Positions 352-30,381 of a stretch of DNA of 30,928 bases are shown one piece after another (position 1 is the first letter of the stretch; every line of letters starts with the position of its first letter). The DNA comes from a virus. The notes below the pieces were generated by a model. The model had not been told where the DNA came from. It did not search any database and worked only from the letters and a program-made list of their open reading frames with translations. The position numbers and the translations under genes are program-made. The stretch is from the IMG/VR virus record IMGVR_UViG_3300003108_000001, positions 1 through 30,928 of that record; one strand, written 5' to 3'.

Positions 352-987
352 ATGGCAAAGGTTATTGCGCTACTGAACCAAAAGGGCGGGGCTGGCAAGA
401 CTACCGTCGCGACCAATCTAGCGTGCTGGCTGCACTCGCAAGGCCACAAGGTGGTGCTTGTCGATCTAGACCCGCAGGGCAGCTCTACTGAGTGGAGCGA
501 GACACGCGAAAGCGAGGACGTTTTCCCGGTAATGGGCATGGGCAAGCAGGTCGCTCGCGACCTACCGCGCGTTACTGGCGGCTATGACTACGTGATCCTG
601 GATGGCGCGCCGCAAATCAGCGAGCTGATCACACCAGCGATCAAGATTGCTGACCTGGTGCTGATCCCCTGCCAGCCTAGCCCGTTCGACATCTACGCCT
701 GTGAAGATCTCGTCGACCTAATCCACGCCCGGCAAGAAGTGACCGACGGCAAGCCTAAAGCGGCGTTCGTCGTGTCGCGGGCGATCAAGAACACCCACCT
801 GGGGCGCGAAGTACGCGAAGCACTGGCCGAGTACAACCTGCCAATCTTCAACGCGCTAACCACTCAGCGCGTGGCGTATGCCGACTGTGCCAACGGCGGC
901 AGCGTGATGGATCTACCCGAGGGCGACAAGGCCCGCCAGGAGATCGAAACCCTGGGCAAAGAGACACTGGAGTTCATCAATGGCTGA
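352..987 (+). CDS. parA: ParA-family partition ATPase (type Ib)
   Basis: This is a small Walker-type ParA ATPase that would move or position the extrachromosomal prophage on the nucleoid. The deviant Walker A motif KGGAGKTT sits at residues 11-18, Walker B-like VLVDLDPQG at about 35-43, and YVILDGAP follows. At 211 residues it has the usual length of type Ib ParA proteins and lacks the N-terminal DNA-binding domain of P1/F types. I chose the ATG at 352 because GAGGAG lies just upstream and because the longer in-frame start at 286 would run through the repeat array. The gene overlaps the next one by 8 bp, so they form an operon, probably repressed through the octamer array in front of it. Confidence 0.93.
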   Translation: MAKVIALLNQKGGAGKTTVATNLACWLHSQGHKVVLVDLDPQGSSTEWSETRESEDVFPVMGMGKQVARDLPRVTGGYDYVILDGAPQISELITPAIKIADLVLIPCQPSPFDIYACEDLVDLIHARQEVTDGKPKAAFVVSRAIKNTHLGREVREALAEYNLPIFNALTTQRVAYADCANGGSVMDLPEGDKARQEIETLGKETLEFING

Positions 988-1294
988 ACGGAAAAAGCTG
1001 ACGACGCGAAAGCCTGCAGCAGCTAAGGAAGCCGCTGCAGAAGCACCGAAGGAAGCGCCGAAGCACGTAGAGCGCGCCATGCGCGACGTAAAGGAAGATG
1101 TAAAACCACGGCGGGTGATCTACGACACGCATCCGGACATCCACAGCAAGCTGAGCATGATGCGCTCAATGAGCCGCGATAACGTGCCGGTGAAAACGTT
1201 TCTAGACGAAGCGGTGCAGGATCTTTTCGAGAAGTACCGGAAGGGGGAAGGGCAGTACGAGGTGAAGGATATCGACCGGATCCTGGGCGATTAG
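980..1294 (+). CDS. parB: Ribbon-helix-helix centromere-binding protein (ParB-like partner of ParA)
   Basis: This 104-residue protein has an Ala/Lys/Glu-rich flexible N-terminus (about residues 1-40), followed by a short beta segment (RRVIYDT) and two helices ending in FLDEAVQDLFEKY. That is the pattern of a ribbon-helix-helix dimer. Position, size and an 8-bp overlap with parA fit the small centromere-binding partner of type Ib systems: it would bind the octamer arrays, stimulate ParA through its basic N-terminal tail and autorepress the operon. It is not a classic HTH ParB. Family assignment rests on pattern and context, and the symbol is used in the functional sense only. Confidence 0.78.
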   Translation: MAERKKLTTRKPAAAKEAAAEAPKEAPKHVERAMRDVKEDVKPRRVIYDTHPDIHSKLSMMRSMSRDNVPVKTFLDEAVQDLFEKYRKGEGQYEVKDIDRILGD

Positions 1295-22503: not shown

Positions 22504-24507
22504 TTACCGCCGTTTTTTGACGACCTTGAAGCGACCGCGTTTTTTTGGCGGTGCTGGTGGCGTGTTATCAGTGGAGGTTGGTTTTGCTTCCGGTTCGGGC
22601 TCAGCTGGTGTGTCGGTATCATCGACTGGATCACCGCTCTCGCCTTTCGCCAGGCGCTTTAGATCGCCCATGGTGAGCGCGCCGCGCTTGCGTCTGTGCA
22701 GCTTCGCGCGTAGCGCCATGATGTATTGCATCGCCTCGCAGTCGAGCTTGTGGTTTTCGCCGACCTTCTTATACGTGCCGGTCTCCTCGCTCCATTCCTC
22801 GCCCACGATCTGCTTGCAGTAGTCGTCAGTAACGTCCGTGGGGATCAGCCACCAGCCTGGGTAACGGTCAGCCTCGCCGCTTTGCGCCCGGCTAATGCGG
22901 CTATGCACCCAACGCTTGGCCAACGGTGAGTCGAACGCCCAACGGGCGTCGCCGCGCTTGCGCACCTTGCCCTGCTTGTTAACTTCAACCAGCTCTTTTT
23001 TGAACGGCTTATCGAGCTTTTCCCGGCCACGCAGTGCCACCACACGGCCCTTGTGAGCGTTGATGAATGCATAAACCTGATCGTCTCGGTAGCCGATATC
23101 GATACCGGTTTCGTTAATCGGATGGCCGCTGTACTCTTGATCGATCAGCTCACTCAGGTCATCCCACACCAAATCCTCATCGGTGTTGCCCCAGAGTTCG
23201 CCCTCCTCGAGCAGCTGCGACCCCATCCCGACAAACCAGGCACGCACGGTGTATTCCAGGCGGTTTTTCTGCACATCGATAGTGCAGAAAATCTTTACTG
23301 GATCCGGCAGCACTAATTCACCACTGGCATAAGCCCAACGCATAGAGCGAATCTCCTCCCACGTTGGCACGTCGCCGACTTCCGCAAACAACTGACCAAA
23401 GCCGGTATTTGTGACGCCCATGAGCGTGGCGGGGTCGCCCGATCGCTGCGCTTCCAGCAGCTTCTTAGCAAGAAAGCCGTATGATTTTTTAGCCGCAAAG
23501 CTGACCAGGCCGGATACCCATAGCGAGTAGTGACTAGATCCTTCAGTTTCCGATGTGTCGGTGACTTCACCGGGCAACACCTGGTCGCCCTTTCGCTGTG
23601 CCGGTGTGACTGATTGACCCGGCGCAACGGCCACGCCGCGAGCGTTCATCCACGGCCTGTACTTATCTTCGATTGAATCGCCGCAGCAGGAGCAGATCAG
23701 GCGCGCTTCGCGTTCTGCAACGTCCGGCGAGCACTCCTCTTTGCTGCCCTGGCCAGGCCACCACAGCAAATCTAAATGCGGTATGAAATAGTCGAGGCAG
23801 TTGGGGCACGGGATCGCCCACTCGTGACGTGTGCCTGATTGCCAGAGTCGCCATACCTTCGACGTTACCGCGCCCTTTTTGCCGACCTGCCAATGCTCCA
23901 GGCCGGTGTCTGGATGCTTGCGCTTCGTTACCCGACCACGTAGCGGCGTCGCGGTATAGCCGACCTTTGAATCAACGTAGGCATCGCCACGCGCTTCAAT
24001 GATCTCAGTCGTGTCGCCTTCGCCGGTGTTGACGATCCGGTCTACCTCATCGACCAGTATCAAACCGGCAGAGTCGGCAGCGAGCTCCGTGGGCGAACCC
24101 GCCCAAGCGAAACGGAATTTAGTGCCGCCGATCCACTTCGTGAATTGCGTTGACCGGCGCTTGTCATACTTCCGCCAGAGCGCGGCGCACTCCCGAAACA
24201 TGTCCATGAACTTCGGCTCGACTGTGCTCGTTATCAGCGGCTTAGTCGGCGTTACGTACAGGACTGGTGTCGGATCTTCATCCAGGCGATGGCCAACGAC
24301 ATTTTCCATCGTCACTGACTTGCCCATTTGCGTGCCCATGACGAACGTCACGCGGCGAAACTGTGGCTGGGCGAATGCCCACGCCACCGGTTTCATATAG
24401 GGGTTGCTGTCCGGGTTAAACGGCCCCGGTACCGGCGCGGCTGGTGGCATGATCCGCTTGTCGCGTGCCCACTCGTCACTCGTCCTCGGCGGCGGTGCCT
24501 TCACCAT
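22504..24507 (-). CDS. Terminase large subunit (GpA family)
   Basis: This is a lambda/GpA-type packaging motor and nuclease. The protein (667 aa from ATG 24507) has EWARDKRIMPPAAPVPGP at its start, the family Walker A variant GTQMGKSV near residue 57, Walker B LILVDEVDR near 150, CPNC...CSCC zinc-like Cys pairs around 235-290, and a nuclease domain (FCTIDVQKNRLEY, GIDIGYRDDQVY). Earlier starts at 24564 and 24642 lie deep inside the small subunit gene and lack ribosome sites; 24507 still overlaps that gene by 32 nt, so the start is uncertain. GpA-type motors cut at cos sites. Confidence 0.92.
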   Translation of the reverse strand: MVKAPPPRTSDEWARDKRIMPPAAPVPGPFNPDSNPYMKPVAWAFAQPQFRRVTFVMGTQMGKSVTMENVVGHRLDEDPTPVLYVTPTKPLITSTVEPKFMDMFRECAALWRKYDKRRSTQFTKWIGGTKFRFAWAGSPTELAADSAGLILVDEVDRIVNTGEGDTTEIIEARGDAYVDSKVGYTATPLRGRVTKRKHPDTGLEHWQVGKKGAVTSKVWRLWQSGTRHEWAIPCPNCLDYFIPHLDLLWWPGQGSKEECSPDVAEREARLICSCCGDSIEDKYRPWMNARGVAVAPGQSVTPAQRKGDQVLPGEVTDTSETEGSSHYSLWVSGLVSFAAKKSYGFLAKKLLEAQRSGDPATLMGVTNTGFGQLFAEVGDVPTWEEIRSMRWAYASGELVLPDPVKIFCTIDVQKNRLEYTVRAWFVGMGSQLLEEGELWGNTDEDLVWDDLSELIDQEYSGHPINETGIDIGYRDDQVYAFINAHKGRVVALRGREKLDKPFKKELVEVNKQGKVRKRGDARWAFDSPLAKRWVHSRISRAQSGEADRYPGWWLIPTDVTDDYCKQIVGEEWSEETGTYKKVGENHKLDCEAMQYIMALRAKLHRRKRGALTMGDLKRLAKGESGDPVDDTDTPAEPEPEAKPTSTDNTPPAPPKKRGRFKVVKKRR

Positions 24508-25066: not shown

Positions 25067-25232
25067 AGAAAGGACTAAGGCGCGCGGCCGTTTGACGTGC
25101 AAATGTAGAAACGTCCTTTCTCACTAAAGGCCGTTTGTACATTTGTACTGTTGTACTAATGTGCATGGTTGCTGGGCTGCCGGGGCGACGACGCCACCCC
25201 GGCCAGTCCTTTCTAGAAAGGAAGTAAGGACT
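25067..25232. repeat. AGTCCTTTCT repeats: candidate terminase-binding (cosB-like) or operator region
   Basis: The decamer AGTCCTTTCT occurs exactly at 25205-25214 and, inverted, at 25067-25076; near copies are at 25112-25121 (9 of 10) and inverted at 25215-25224 (8 of 10). The last two adjoin as the perfect 16-bp palindrome TCCTTTCTAGAAAGGA (25207-25222). A further partial inverted copy is at 25226-25232. All lie immediately upstream of the small terminase gene, where lambda-like phages keep cosB near Nu1. Function is inferred. Confidence 0.5.
25133..25164 (+). repeat. Four tandem 8-bp repeats (array B), same motif as in front of parA
   Basis: Octamers start at 25133, 25141, 25149 and 25157 with no spacing: GTTTGTAC, ATTTGTAC, TGTTGTAC, TAATGTGC. 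The consensus equals that of array A, and both arrays share the junction TGTRCTAATGTRC. The array lies between the holin gene and the terminase genes and would place the partition protein next to the late structural genes. Confidence 0.8.
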
Positions 25233-25325: not shown

Positions 25326-25883
25326 TTACCTCCCATAATCGCTTAAATCTCGCAGGTTTTTCCCGCCTAACTGGGCGGGCGGTGGGCCACCTCCACCGCC
25401 ATAAAAGAACTTCATTAAGCCGCCGATCAGGCCGCCGACAATCACAACGTTTAGTATCAAATCGGCATACCGCTCGCCTTCAGGCGTCAGCGGGAAGAAG
25501 GTGACTGCAACCGAATAGCCAATAGCAAACGAAACCAGCACAAAGGTAAGCAGGTAAATGAAGTTCTTAGCGAGCCACCCTGACCGCTCAGACTCCATCA
25601 CTGCCACTTGCATTGAGCGAGCATCGACACGATCCTCATGGGCAATACGCTCCAGCTTCACCTGCCGATCAATCAGTGCCTCTTCAAAACGAAGCCGGGC
25701 TTCTGGGTCAGTCTGCAGCGCCTCAAGCGCATCGACCTCAGTTGGCGCGCCGGTAATCAGCTTGGCCATATCGATCACCTGCTCGGCAACTTCAACGCCG
25801 TTTTTTGCCGCGAACAGCCCGCCAATCTTTTTGCCTAAGCCCACCGTTTGAGCTAGGGCGGACGCTATAGTGATAATACTCAC
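25326..25883 (-). CDS. Holin (3-TM GTA-holin-like)
   Basis: The 185-residue protein has a short hydrophobic N-terminus (IITIASALAQTVGLG), a central charged helical part (about 55-100), and two membrane segments near residues 106-127 and 136-158. After these comes a Gly-rich turn (FYGGGGGPPP) and a short polar tail. This is the layout of the 'holin of 3TMs' family. It overlaps the endolysin by 4 nt and would form the membrane lesion that releases it. Confidence 0.8.
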   Translation of the reverse strand: MSIITIASALAQTVGLGKKIGGLFAAKNGVEVAEQVIDMAKLITGAPTEVDALEALQTDPEARLRFEEALIDRQVKLERIAHEDRVDARSMQVAVMESERSGWLAKNFIYLLTFVLVSFAIGYSVAVTFFPLTPEGERYADLILNVVIVGGLIGGLMKFFYGGGGGPPPAQLGGKNLRDLSDYGR

Positions 25884-26527
25884 AAAAACTCCCCTTGCGG
25901 CACAGCCGCCACTTCGTTAAGCCAATCGCTGGGCACCGGTTGCTGCAGCAGCACGTTAGAGAGCAGCTTGACCACACGTTTGAACCAGCCATAAGTGAAT
26001 GTCTCCTGGTCTTCGCTGCGCTCTGCTAAACCACGGCAGAACACAATACGCTCAGCGTTGACCGTGTGAGCCAACACCTCTAAACCACCATCACCACGTG
26101 CGGCCGCGAAACCTTTCAAGGCTTTCATTGACTCATTACCGAACGCCCGGTCAACTTCGATATCGGGATAAAGCTGACCGCGATTGTTCAGCACGTTCAG
26201 CTGACGCTGCAGGTACTCCGCAGCACGACCCGGCCCGCTGTTAACGCCAAAATCAAACAACACCAACGCAAGGTCGGTGCTTAACTCGGCGACTTCATCC
26301 AGTTTCAGCGAATGCCAGTAGTCACCGGCATAGATCGCAGCCGCCGTGGATCGTGGCAGGGCGCGCATATCGCCGGTGTAGCCATTCTTTCGCGCAACTG
26401 CGATTGTGATGCCCCAGTTGGTTGGCCCGCCACGATCTTCAGATCGGTTGGAATAGCCGCCCTCACGGTCGATCACTTCCGCTATCAGCTTCCGCTTTAG
26501 CTGATCGATGCTTATCACCCGGCTCAT
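25880..26527 (-). CDS. Endolysin, glycoside hydrolase family 108 (N-acetylmuramidase-like)
   Basis: The protein (215 aa) carries the GH108 signature REGGYSNR with the probable catalytic Glu at residue 22, followed by RGGPTNWGITIAVAR, ALPRSTAAAIYAGDYW and LALVLFDFGVNSGPGRAA. The C-terminal half matches the predicted peptidoglycan-binding part of this family (AERIVFCRGLAER). It degrades the cell wall at lysis. There is no signal peptide, so it depends on the holin. It overlaps the neighbouring lysis genes by 4 nt on each side. Confidence 0.92.
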   Translation of the reverse strand: MSRVISIDQLKRKLIAEVIDREGGYSNRSEDRGGPTNWGITIAVARKNGYTGDMRALPRSTAAAIYAGDYWHSLKLDEVAELSTDLALVLFDFGVNSGPGRAAEYLQRQLNVLNNRGQLYPDIEVDRAFGNESMKALKGFAAARGDGGLEVLAHTVNAERIVFCRGLAERSEDQETFTYGWFKRVVKLLSNVLLQQPVPSDWLNEVAAVPQGEFL

Positions 26528-26850
26528 GGCTGCACTCCCGCTTTGCTTAAAATGATCTCAACAAGCACCGGCCCAGCGACCAGCCCGAAAAACGCCAACA
26601 CGCCAAAGAACACCTTTGAAAAGGTGCTCCAGCGATGCACTGACGTAGAGCTCAGCTTTTCCACCTCCGTTTTGAGCGTGGCCACCGCGCCCTCTACGGT
26701 GTCCAGGCGGCCTTCAGCGTGAGCAATGTCTCTTTCGTTTCTGTCCTGTCGCTCTTCCAGCCGAACGACGCGATCGAGCTTCTCCTCAATGCGCACCAGG
26801 CGCGCGAAAAGCTCCTGGCTCATTAAGTCGGAGTTCATAGTCGTATCCAT
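26524..26850 (-). CDS. Coiled-coil and membrane-anchor lysis protein (XhlA-like)
   Basis: A long coiled coil (about residues 15-70, with ARLVRIEEKLDRVVRLEER and the VEGAVATLKTEVEKL heptads) is followed by one membrane segment (VFFGVLAFFGLVAGPVLVEI) near the C-terminus. That is the layout of XhlA-type and related lysis accessory proteins. It is the first gene of the lysis operon, upstream of the endolysin and holin. Two starts are possible (26850 and 26838, the latter with a weak GGA); I keep the longer one. It could also be a holin regulator. Confidence 0.65.
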   Translation of the reverse strand: MDTTMNSDLMSQELFARLVRIEEKLDRVVRLEERQDRNERDIAHAEGRLDTVEGAVATLKTEVEKLSSTSVHRWSTFSKVFFGVLAFFGLVAGPVLVEIILSKAGVQP

Positions 26851-26876: not shown

Positions 26877-26901
26877 CAAAAAAGCCCGCACGAAGGCGGG
26901 C
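26877..26901 (-). terminator. Leftward terminator t2 of the late control region
   Basis: GCCCGC / GCGGGC (26884-26889 with 26896-26901, loop ACGAAG) is followed on the minus strand by TTTTTTG. It lies between the predicted late promoter and the first lysis gene, where a lambda tR'-like terminator would be. Confidence 0.85.
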
Positions 26902-26921
26902 AAAGGTTGTCACCGGGAACG

Positions 26922-26953
26922 AAAAAGCCCGCCGGGTTAGGGCGGGCTTTCGC
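26922..26953 (-). terminator. Leftward terminator t1 of the late control region
   Basis: AGCCCGCC / GGCGGGCT (26926-26933 with 26941-26948) is followed on the minus strand by TTTTTCG. Its other side has only TTTCG, so it acts mainly leftward. It stands in tandem with t2, about 20-25 nt after the expected transcript start. Confidence 0.85.
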
Positions 26954-26974
26954 AATTAGGGCAATTTGACATAG

Positions 26975-27002
26975 AGAATACCTCGGTACGGACTTTTGTC
27001 AA
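26975..27002 (-). promoter_or_regulatory. Predicted late promoter overlapping array C
   Basis: On the minus strand TTGACA (27002-26997), a consensus -35, is followed after 16 nt by TATTCT (26980-26975), which matches 4 of 6 of the -10. A transcript would start near 26968, meet terminators t1 and t2, and then enter the lysis operon. The -35 sits inside the first two octamers of array C. This is the pR'-tR' layout controlled by a Q antiterminator in lambdoid phages; activity is predicted, not shown. Confidence 0.6.
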
Positions 27003-27057
27003 CAAGTACAAACGAACTAACCTACCTATGTACATTCGTACTAAAGCACTTTTGTAC
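26994..27057 (+). repeat. Eight in-phase 8-bp units (array C), same motif as in front of parA
   Basis: Eight consecutive octamers occupy 26994-27057. Strong matches to NTTTGTAC are at 27026, 27034 and 27050; partial ones are at 26994, 27002, 27010, 27018 and 27042. All keep the same 8-bp phase, which argues against chance. The right end just touches the stop codon of the Lar-like gene and the left end covers the late promoter -35. Binding by the partition protein would be expected to repress this promoter. Confidence 0.7.
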
Positions 27058-27362
27058 TAACGCAAGCGCCGCGCCCAGCCTGCCACCGCGCCTTGCAACG
27101 ACATAAATCCGCCCACACGGTTATCGCAACCGGTGCAGCCACCGAACCACTGCTGCTCACGTTGCTTAAAGCGCACCGGCTTTTCTTCACAGCAGTAGGG
27201 CAGGTCGGTGCGGTTGACCTGGCTCCAGGACGCCACCGCCCAATCGTGGTTGGTGCTGGCCTCACCACGGTTGTTACACACCGGGCAGATCAGCAGCAGG
27301 GCACCGGCCTTTTCGCGGCGCTCTGGTGGGTGCTGGCAGTGGGTGCAGTTGGGCAGGCTCAA
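27057..27362 (-). CDS. Small zinc-finger protein resembling Lar restriction alleviation proteins
   Basis: The 101-residue product has Cys pairs at 6/9, 26/29, 57/58 and 76/79. The first half (CTHC...CPVCNNRGEA......WAVASWSQVNR) follows the Lar pattern CPxC, CPxCGA, A...WN.R. Lar-type proteins help incoming phage DNA survive host restriction. A second zinc-type pair in the C-terminal half makes it larger than E. coli RalR/Lar. The start is TTG, overlapping the previous stop as TTGA. It is the last gene of the early operon and its stop touches array C. Lar assignment is tentative. Confidence 0.6.
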   Translation of the reverse strand: MSLPNCTHCQHPPERREKAGALLLICPVCNNRGEASTNHDWAVASWSQVNRTDLPYCCEEKPVRFKQREQQWFGGCTGCDNRVGGFMSLQGAVAGWARRLR

Positions 27363-27591: not shown

Positions 27592-27837
27592 CTACTCCTC
27601 AGCCAACGGCACGCCGCTGGCCTTCAAGCTCTTAACCAGGCGTATGGTTTCAGGATCCACCAGGAACTCACCCATCTGCTTAACCATCTCAGTGCGTGCC
27701 GATGTGAAGCTGCTGAACAGAGCCTCCCAGCCCAGGCTGCAAGCAGCCGCCTCATATTCCACGTCGACCTTATCGACGTTCGCCGCCTCCATATCGCCGC
27801 GCATTAACCCTGCGTCACTCCAGCCGTAAACCTTCAC
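27592..27837 (-). CDS. Hypothetical protein after the Q-like gene, 81 aa
   Basis: I place the start at GTG 27837 because GGAGG sits 7 nt upstream; a TTG start at 27852 also exists but lies inside that ribosome site. The product begins VKVYGWSDAG and has two helical stretches (CSLGWEALFSSFTSARTEMV, TIRLVKSLKASGV). No family or motif is recognised. It overlaps the Q-like gene by 4 nt and must be translated with it. Confidence 0.6.
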   Translation of the reverse strand: MKVYGWSDAGLMRGDMEAANVDKVDVEYEAAACSLGWEALFSSFTSARTEMVKQMGEFLVDPETIRLVKSLKASGVPLAEE

Positions 27838-28469
27838 TCGGTCACCCTCCAAAGCGCTTCAAGCGCTTCGCGATCGATATCGTTAAGCAGGCGGTGCATC
27901 GTTTGCCACCGGCCGCACCAGTGCTTGTCCCAGTTCGCCCGCGTCACGCCGAGCAGCTGCTGCAGGCGCTCAGGCTCATAGGCAGGCTTGCCGCTGTTCT
28001 TACGCGCCTTGTGGCACTGCACAGCGAGGTGTGCCAGCCCTTTGCAGCCCTTGAGCGTCTTAGCCTGCACCTTGCCCATCACCGGCTCGAAACGCCCCCA
28101 CAGGGCCACGGTGACGCCTTGCTCGTCGCACCATTCACGGCTATCGGCATACGCATAGCGCAACCAGTGCTGGTGGCCAGGCTCAAGCGTGCGGATCGCC
28201 GCCACGATCCGCGCGTCATCAAACGCCCACGGCGGCAGCGGGAGAGAGCTGCTCGGTTTCGGCCTGGTGCCGCTGGCGATCAGCCGCGTTGATGCCCGTT
28301 TCATTTCAGCCGACCAACGGCGTGGCCCTGCCGGGGGAGTGCGGTCTCGGTAAGTGTCATCGGTATAGCGCGCGACGCTACCGTCTTCGCTAATACGGCG
28401 GGGTGATGGCGTTGCATGCGCATAGACAACGGTGCGCCGCAGATACGCCAGATCCTGAGCTCCCAGCAC
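27834..28469 (-). CDS. Probable late antitermination protein (Q-like)
   Basis: The protein is basic, with an unstructured Pro/Ser/Arg-rich N-terminal third, followed by a helical core HWLRYAYADSREWCDEQG, LWGRFEPVMGKVQAKTL, KGLAHLAVQCHKAR, then GVTRANWDKHWCGRWQTMHRLL. The W..RYAY and the Trp-rich end are reminiscent of phage antitermination Q families. Its position just upstream of the late promoter, paired terminators and lysis operon is where Q genes lie in lambdoid phages and VP882. I use GTG 28469, with GAGGGG 7 nt upstream; a GTG at 28529 would overlap the TraR-like gene by 50 nt. The family call rests mainly on context. Confidence 0.55.
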   Translation of the reverse strand: MLGAQDLAYLRRTVVYAHATPSPRRISEDGSVARYTDDTYRDRTPPAGPRRWSAEMKRASTRLIASGTRPKPSSSLPLPPWAFDDARIVAAIRTLEPGHQHWLRYAYADSREWCDEQGVTVALWGRFEPVMGKVQAKTLKGCKGLAHLAVQCHKARKNSGKPAYEPERLQQLLGVTRANWDKHWCGRWQTMHRLLNDIDREALEALWRVTE

Positions 28470-28479
28470 GACCACCCCC

Positions 28480-28707
28480 TCATCGAAAGCGCTTGGCTTG
28501 CCGATCAACAAAATCCTGACATTCGACACAGCGCGTCACCCACGGCATGGCCGCCCGGCGCGCAGCCGGGATATCAAAGCCACACTCGACGCAATGCTCC
28601 GACCCCTGCTGGCGTTCGCGTGCCGCTTGCTCACGCGCTAATCGCTCAGCCGTGGCCGCGTCCAGGCGCGCCTGTTCTTCCCCTGCGACATCTGCTATAT
28701 CACTCAC
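28480..28707 (-). CDS. TraR/DksA-type C4 zinc finger protein
   Basis: Starting at GTG 28707 (AGGGG nine nt upstream), the 75-residue product has a helical N-terminus (EEQARLDAATAERLAREQAARERQ) and the TraR/DksA finger CVECGFDIPAARR...CVECQ. That is the usual size of TraR-like proteins, which bind the RNA polymerase secondary channel and shift promoter use. In phages such proteins are thought to redirect host transcription. The start overlaps the previous stop as GTGA. Longer ATG starts upstream lie inside the tiny preceding gene. Confidence 0.9.
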   Translation of the reverse strand: MSDIADVAGEEQARLDAATAERLAREQAARERQQGSEHCVECGFDIPAARRAAMPWVTRCVECQDFVDRQAKRFR

Positions 28708-30314: not shown

Positions 30315-30343
30315 ATTCTGCTTATAAGTAGAATTTAGTTCAA
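30315..30343 (-). promoter_or_regulatory. Predicted early leftward promoter
   Basis: On the minus strand TTGAAC (30343-30338) and CAGAAT (30320-30315) are separated by 17 nt. The -10 overlaps operator O1, so CI binding would block it. It would drive the early lytic operon starting at 30259. Confidence 0.5.
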
Positions 30344-30381
30344 TAGCTTTCTGCTTATCAGACTTTGCTTTTATGTAGATT
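30315..30381. promoter_or_regulatory. Three repeated operator-like sites between divergent regulators
   Basis: O1, ATTCTGCTTATAAGTAGAAT (30315-30334), is a near-perfect 20-bp palindrome. O3 (30362-30381) matches it at 15 of 20 positions. O2 (30348-30367) shares the left half (TTCTGCTTAT) and contains the palindrome TCTGCTTATCAGA. The layout resembles a lambda-type right operator, placed between the CI-like and CII-like genes. Confidence 0.7.

Follow-up and report, generated by a model that had tools for sequence, protein, structure and literature searches.

A Q-type late region with tandem terminators and an array of putative partition-protein sites in a relative of Halomonas phage phiHAP-1

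The late control region

The DNA analysed is a 30.9-kb viral fragment, and the whole stretch of 30,928 nucleotides is referred to here as the window. The nearest named relative is the Halomonas phage phiHAP-1, a linear plasmid-prophage with a protelomerase and a ParA, which shares 81% DNA identity with it across the late region. On the minus strand a Q-like gene is followed by two small open reading frames, a Lar-like gene (27057-27362) and an array of 8-bp boxes; downstream of the array come a -35 and a -10 element, two terminators (T1 and T2), a holin-like gene, an endolysin gene, another gene and then the terminase and virion genes. The gene nearest to the terminators on their 3' side is the holin/haemolysin-like gene (26524-26850, minus strand; phrog_1193 1.6e-5, phrog_689 holin 1.2e-4), and the endolysin (25880-26527, minus strand) is made up of a GH108 domain (PF05838, 6.1e-25) and a peptidoglycan-binding domain (PF09374, 4.4e-13). 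For comparison, 27 late regions of relatives were retrieved through their Q gene. The order Q, promoter, terminators, holin-like gene and endolysin is kept in relatives from Halomonas, Vibrio (VP882) and Pseudomonas. A BLASTN search of the control region against plasmids gave no match.

The Q-like gene (27834-28529, minus strand) has an uncertain start codon, the similarity to the Q of phiHAP-1 beginning near 28499. Its product matches PF06323 (Phage_antiter_Q) at 5.8e-15 and phrog_304 at 2.5e-48, with 85% identity to the phiHAP-1 Q and 34% identity to the Q of phage 82 across about half its length. It thus belongs to the family of the phage 82 Q, which itself matches PF06323 at 6.4e-95, and the Q of VP882, a protein that drives lysis (PMC11315295), is also a member. 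A search of the Q-like protein against the PDB by sequence gave no useful match. From its family and the layout of the locus, this protein would be expected to antiterminate at the late promoter (27002-26975). Just upstream of the Q-like gene and overlapping it is a DksA/TraR-like zinc-finger gene (PF01258, 28480-28833), which is conserved in the annotations of phiHAP-1, VP882 and VHML.

The late promoter, on the minus strand, comprises TTGACA (26997-27002) and TATTCT (26975-26980) with 16-nt spacing and 10 of 12 consensus matches, and would give a transcript starting near 26968. Two promoter-like sites were found in 3.5 kb where 1.2 ± 1.0 were expected, so that by itself the promoter lies within chance; it is the conservation of its position in the relatives that decides in its favour. 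The Q proteins already characterised require two elements, one for binding between the -35 and the -10 and a -10-like one for pausing among the first bases of the transcript (PMC6606751). The spacer of this promoter (26981-26996, minus strand) opens with AAAGTCCG, a candidate Q-binding element that is conserved in the relatives, most of which keep AAAAGTMMSG at the start of the spacer despite the differing cores of their arrays. In the initial transcribed region TAATTG (26953-26958, minus strand) is, from its position, a candidate for the pause element. It falls just before T1, where the relatives have a conserved leader block of the GCGATACAT / TTGCGATAAC type. Both conserved blocks sit where a Q-binding element and a pause element belong and may serve as such.

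T1, which resembles tR', lies at 26921-26950 on the minus strand and has a 10-bp stem (26950-26941/26933-26924; -18.0 kcal/mol, z -4.0). T2 follows at 26878-26901 on the same strand, with a 6-bp stem (26901-26896/26889-26884) plus U6 (-12.4 kcal/mol, z -3.5). Terminators are found between the promoter and the holin gene in 26 of the 27 related late regions, nearly always as a pair, and there are few elsewhere in those 27 loci. In 26 of 29 promoters the first stem base of T1 comes 51-57 nt after the -35, and the sequence of T1 varies among the relatives despite this steady distance. A preliminary description of this DNA had proposed a promoter facing the lysis operon, two terminators ahead of the first lysis gene and a Q-like gene upstream, together the architecture of Q antitermination. 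All of these elements were recovered and, with the Q family, the gene order and the tandem terminators conserved in the relatives, Q antitermination at this late region appears well supported by comparison.

The region shares with the lambdoid Q/pR'/tR' systems of phages 82, 21 and lambda the Q-family gene upstream, the one promoter with one or more terminators before the lysis genes, the conserved spacer block at the position of the Q-binding element and the very short leader. It differs from them in having two tandem terminators, an array of 8-bp boxes, likely partition-protein sites, phase-locked to the -35, and Q-binding and pause elements that are candidates.

Box arrays in the window and in related genomes

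Seven in-register 8-bp boxes (NNGTACNN), which we propose to be an operator for a partition protein, occupy 27004-27059, and four of the seven have a perfect GTAC. Two weaker boxes continue the register, one at 26996-27003 over the -35 and one beyond it at 26988-26995. These boxes were found with a hold-out matrix trained on Vibrio and Pseudomonas elements only, and the chance level was taken from 200 shuffles of the whole window. The array including the weaker boxes (26988-27059) scores 56.1 bits against a shuffle maximum of 18.0. Other periods give 12-16 bits (5-7, 9-11, 13 and 14) or 22 bits (12); the 7-bp iterons of the omega-type heptad regulon are not found here, a period of 7 scoring 12.5 bits and a period of 8 scoring 56. 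Pairs of GTAC spaced by exactly 8 occur six times in the window, against 0.14 expected. The preliminary description had placed the array within 26877-27057 and over the -35. An array is indeed present there but ends at 27059, two bases further on, and though the two weaker boxes cover the -35 in register, the bulk lies just upstream of it, from about -36 to -91.

A second array lies upstream of the terminase small-subunit gene (25095-25166; 48-54 bits) and a third immediately upstream of parA (286-325; 47-51 bits). The second has nine boxes, four of them good, and is upstream of or overlaps the annotated start of the terminase gene. PhiHAP-1 and a P. corrugata plasmid each have an array in this position, and the one in the window may control packaging genes or be close to the packaging site. 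The array at 286-325 had been considered as the counterpart of the phiHAP-1 array at 23803; this was wrong, and 286-325 is the parA array. A palindrome, TTCTGCTTATAAGTAGAA, is found at 30316-30333, with a partial copy at 30349-30361, between a CII-like gene and cI. These palindromes are likely to be operators of the CI/Cro type, and they differ from the late array. A reading of the late array as a set of three operators of the lambda type was rejected because its register is 8 bp and the palindromes between cI and cII are different.

Similar arrays are distributed across the relatives. Both phiHAP-1 and VP882 have them at parA and rep; phiHAP-1 has others at the late promoter, the terminase end and one further place, and VP882 has them in the late region as well. 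VHML and the Pseudomonas phage-plasmids have arrays at corresponding places. For 49 of the 60 relatives of the partition protein, an array immediately precedes parA. The late array is kept in phiHAP-1, in VP882 and in about 24 of 26 further late regions, and in every genome that has one (26/26) the TTG of the -35 is no more than 1 nt from the array register. In several Pseudomonas elements the -35 itself forms a good box (TTGCGCAA). This register speaks for the array and the promoter being functionally linked, and for a protein filament that extends by 8 bp at a time and would occlude the -35. Two relatives (L074 and L075; loci L124 and L122) have the late promoter, the tandem terminators and arrays at parA and lack the late array, so the array would be an added layer that is not essential to the Q mechanism. 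In phiHAP-1 and VP882, the direct relatives, the arrays, Q, promoter and tandem terminators are all as in the window, with no difference in kind.

The cores of the boxes differ between clades. GTAC is found in Halomonas, VP882 and one Pseudomonas group, GGAC/GTCC in L033, GTGC in L044, GTTC/GAAC in another Pseudomonas group and TTTACGC in L072. Across 23 genomes the core of the late array resembles that of the parA array more within a genome (similarity 0.62) than between genomes (0.33), and for nine hand-picked clades the values are 0.685 and 0.288 (p = 0.0004). The same clade test gave p < 0.0001 for parA and rep and p = 0.007 for rep and the late array. Shared descent accounts for part of this similarity, and the co-variation is the trace that would be expected from one protein binding all of the arrays. 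The most divergent clade, L072, was initially scored as having no late array, and TTTACGCN boxes were then recognised both at parA and at the late promoter, which is the best place for them in the 3.6-kb locus. A matrix derived from L072 is unspecific, with two other late regions outscoring L072 itself, so the finding is worth no more than agreement in the visible TTTACGCN core. One alignment row (L044x) came from a wrong location and was disregarded.

Further strong arrays lie among small genes of unassigned function downstream of the partition genes, at 23803-23834 in phiHAP-1 (L003) and 12201-12256 in L033. In phiHAP-1 (26515-26554) and VHML (L005, 42742-42789) the array lies inside the annotated parA or right where it begins, and the annotated starts are probably too early. 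The partition protein encoded on a contig filed under Spirulina subsalsa (L031) shares 67% identity with the one in the Halomonas phage, and the contig has the same arrays; it is probably a phage of a companion bacterium.

The partition genes and the likely binder of the arrays

The third array stands before parA (352-987, plus strand), which encodes a small partition ATPase of 211 residues resembling those of type Ib (AAA_31, 1.7e-26 from residue 2; phrog_164 ParA-like, 8.2e-57) with no N-terminal DNA-binding domain. Overlapping it is a gene for a protein of 104 residues (980-1294, plus strand; phrog_15913, 1.9e-29), which we propose to be a ribbon-helix-helix (RHH) partition protein that binds the arrays. 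Its counterparts are gp52 in VP882 and HAPgp32 in phiHAP-1. Its family, phrog_15913, is annotated as of unknown function. The protein by itself gives a weak RHH match in Pfam; among the 37 family members there are 27 matches to Antitox_RHH (best 1.6e-5) and 8 to RHH_3. An RHH profile searched against the PDB by sequence gave no useful match, with a CopG regulator at E 0.63.

The core of the protein was modelled with AlphaFold2 (pLDDT 87) as an extended stretch and two helices, for which Foldseek returned no match in the PDB at E ≤ 10. When the four top-ranked chains were aligned with VIA-align, HicB (6g26) gave 1.4 Å over 44 residues with a Z of 5.5, and the core model also aligned with AtaTR (6ajm, Z 5.0) and HicB3 (4p7d, Z 4.2). 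These are antitoxin chains of the HicB and AtaR kinds, which we take to be RHH-domain proteins, and the alignments, with Z as low as 4.2-5.5, are no more than suggestive of an RHH fold for the modelled core. A full-length partition protein (L024) gave a model with a pLDDT of 68, and its Foldseek matches were meaningless.

The locus has features of type Ib partition, namely a small ParA that lacks an N-terminal DNA-binding domain, an adjoining small gene of an RHH family and, in the array at 286-325, short sites repeated ahead of the par operon. Partition proteins of this type bind iterated short sites and repress promoters (PMC5016525, PMC7308502). The ParG model of Pfam matched none of the 37 family members nor the protein of the window, and the ParB/SopB models did not match the gene after parA, which sets it apart from the SopB type of N15. 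Where the RHH core begins, the residues expected to form the DNA-contacting strand vary along with the box (RRVIYDT, KRIPLEV, KKIPLLA and ERVYFTG). The RHH partition protein encoded at 980-1294 is the most likely cognate binder of the arrays. Since the core of the late array follows that of the parA array in its own genome, the late promoter most likely carries operator sites for this protein, which perhaps serve as a centromere too. The preliminary description had suspected a second, repressive layer at this promoter and made no link to the partition system or to the protein of 980-1294. The idea gains support from finding the array to be one of a genome-wide set with a likely cognate RHH protein.

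A possible role for the array at the late promoter

We think it probable that the region is a Q-dependent late promoter of the pR' type, repressed through an array that binds the RHH protein, in a linear plasmid-prophage related to phiHAP-1 and VP882. RNA polymerase would start near 26968 and would normally halt after about 45 nt at T1, or else at T2. Q, once made, would load at the promoter-proximal complex and allow the polymerase to pass both terminators into the lysis genes and then into the co-oriented terminase and virion genes. Dimers of the protein encoded at 980-1294 would bind the late array, and this protein would also occupy the arrays at parA, rep and the terminase gene. Coated in this way, the late array most likely keeps the -35 covered in the lysogen and so tightens the off state, with stray transcripts ending at T1 and T2. 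On induction, amplification of the genome would dilute the partition protein over many arrays, so that the late promoter is freed and initiation rises. The arrays together may also act as a dispersed centromere.

More tentatively, the partition protein could be the copy-number sensor of the lytic switch. It would keep the promoters of par, rep and the late genes in check during lysogeny, and its titration over the dozens of boxes per genome would free the late promoter once there are enough genomes for packaging. We regard this as a possibility that is rather doubtful at present.

That there are several arrays per genome, and that two relatives do without a late array, would also fit an ordinary Q-dependent late promoter with a neighbouring centromere site that has no effect on transcription. 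The linear plasmid-prophage N15 likewise has several separate centromere sites, IR1-4 (PMC7205306), though its SopB is an unrelated ParB of the HTH type and the sites are long inverted repeats. Such a reading seems unlikely to us, as a neutral neighbour would not need a -35 phase-locked to the array in 26 of 26 genomes, with boxes running over it. The position of most boxes directly upstream of the -35, at -36 to -91, might instead suggest that dimers of the partition protein assist RNA polymerase as an activator. This is less probable still: the characterised type Ib proteins omega and ParG are repressors (PMC5016525), the array crosses the -35 in register, and one would expect to find the protein in the lysogen, in which the late promoter should be off. 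Control of the promoter by CI/Cro-type repressors, or by Q through a second set of binding sites, would be simple, but is very improbable as the explanation of the array, given that the boxes also occur at parA and rep with a core that follows the parA array, and that the palindromes between cI and cII (TTCTGCTTATAAGTAGAA) differ from them and are absent near the late promoter.

The arrangement that we favour, repression of the late promoter by the partition protein, has precedents on the plasmid side. The omega/delta system of pSM19035 also pairs a small ParA with an RHH partition protein that has iterated sites, and these overlap the promoters of several maintenance genes for copy number and partition, so that one protein is both repressor and centromere binder (PMC5016525). 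The boxes of the window differ from the omega heptads in their period, 8 rather than 7, and the set of sites here takes in a phage's terminase gene and its late lytic promoter. The ParF/ParG system of TP228 resembles the window in its small ParA, in an RHH partition protein whose N-terminal tail is flexible, and in degenerate tetramer boxes with AT-rich spacers in an operator upstream of the par genes (PMC7308502). In the window there is no match to the Pfam ParG model, and the sites are dispersed over several promoters. A Q late region is therefore known, as is a type Ib partition protein with sites over several promoters, in omega of pSM19035. What appears to be new is that such a set of sites reaches a phage late lytic promoter with the -35 in register. 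In the open-access papers searched we found no Q promoter with partition-protein sites and no description of the box arrays of VP882 or phiHAP-1, and the claim of novelty is provisional because the search covered papers of that kind only.

Phage-plasmids are inherited as plasmids, yet must kill as phages. If the proposal is right, one small inheritance protein on the late promoter wires both programmes together, and the arrangement of sites suggests that plasmid inheritance and host killing may be controlled by the same protein. The path from quorum sensing to Q is well studied in VP882 (PMC11315295), and as the late promoter of VP882 carries these sites too, the idea could be tested in an existing laboratory system. 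In VP882 (L004) there is also an extra pair of boxes between the two late terminators (36509-36524) and another array upstream of the late promoter (35728-35775).
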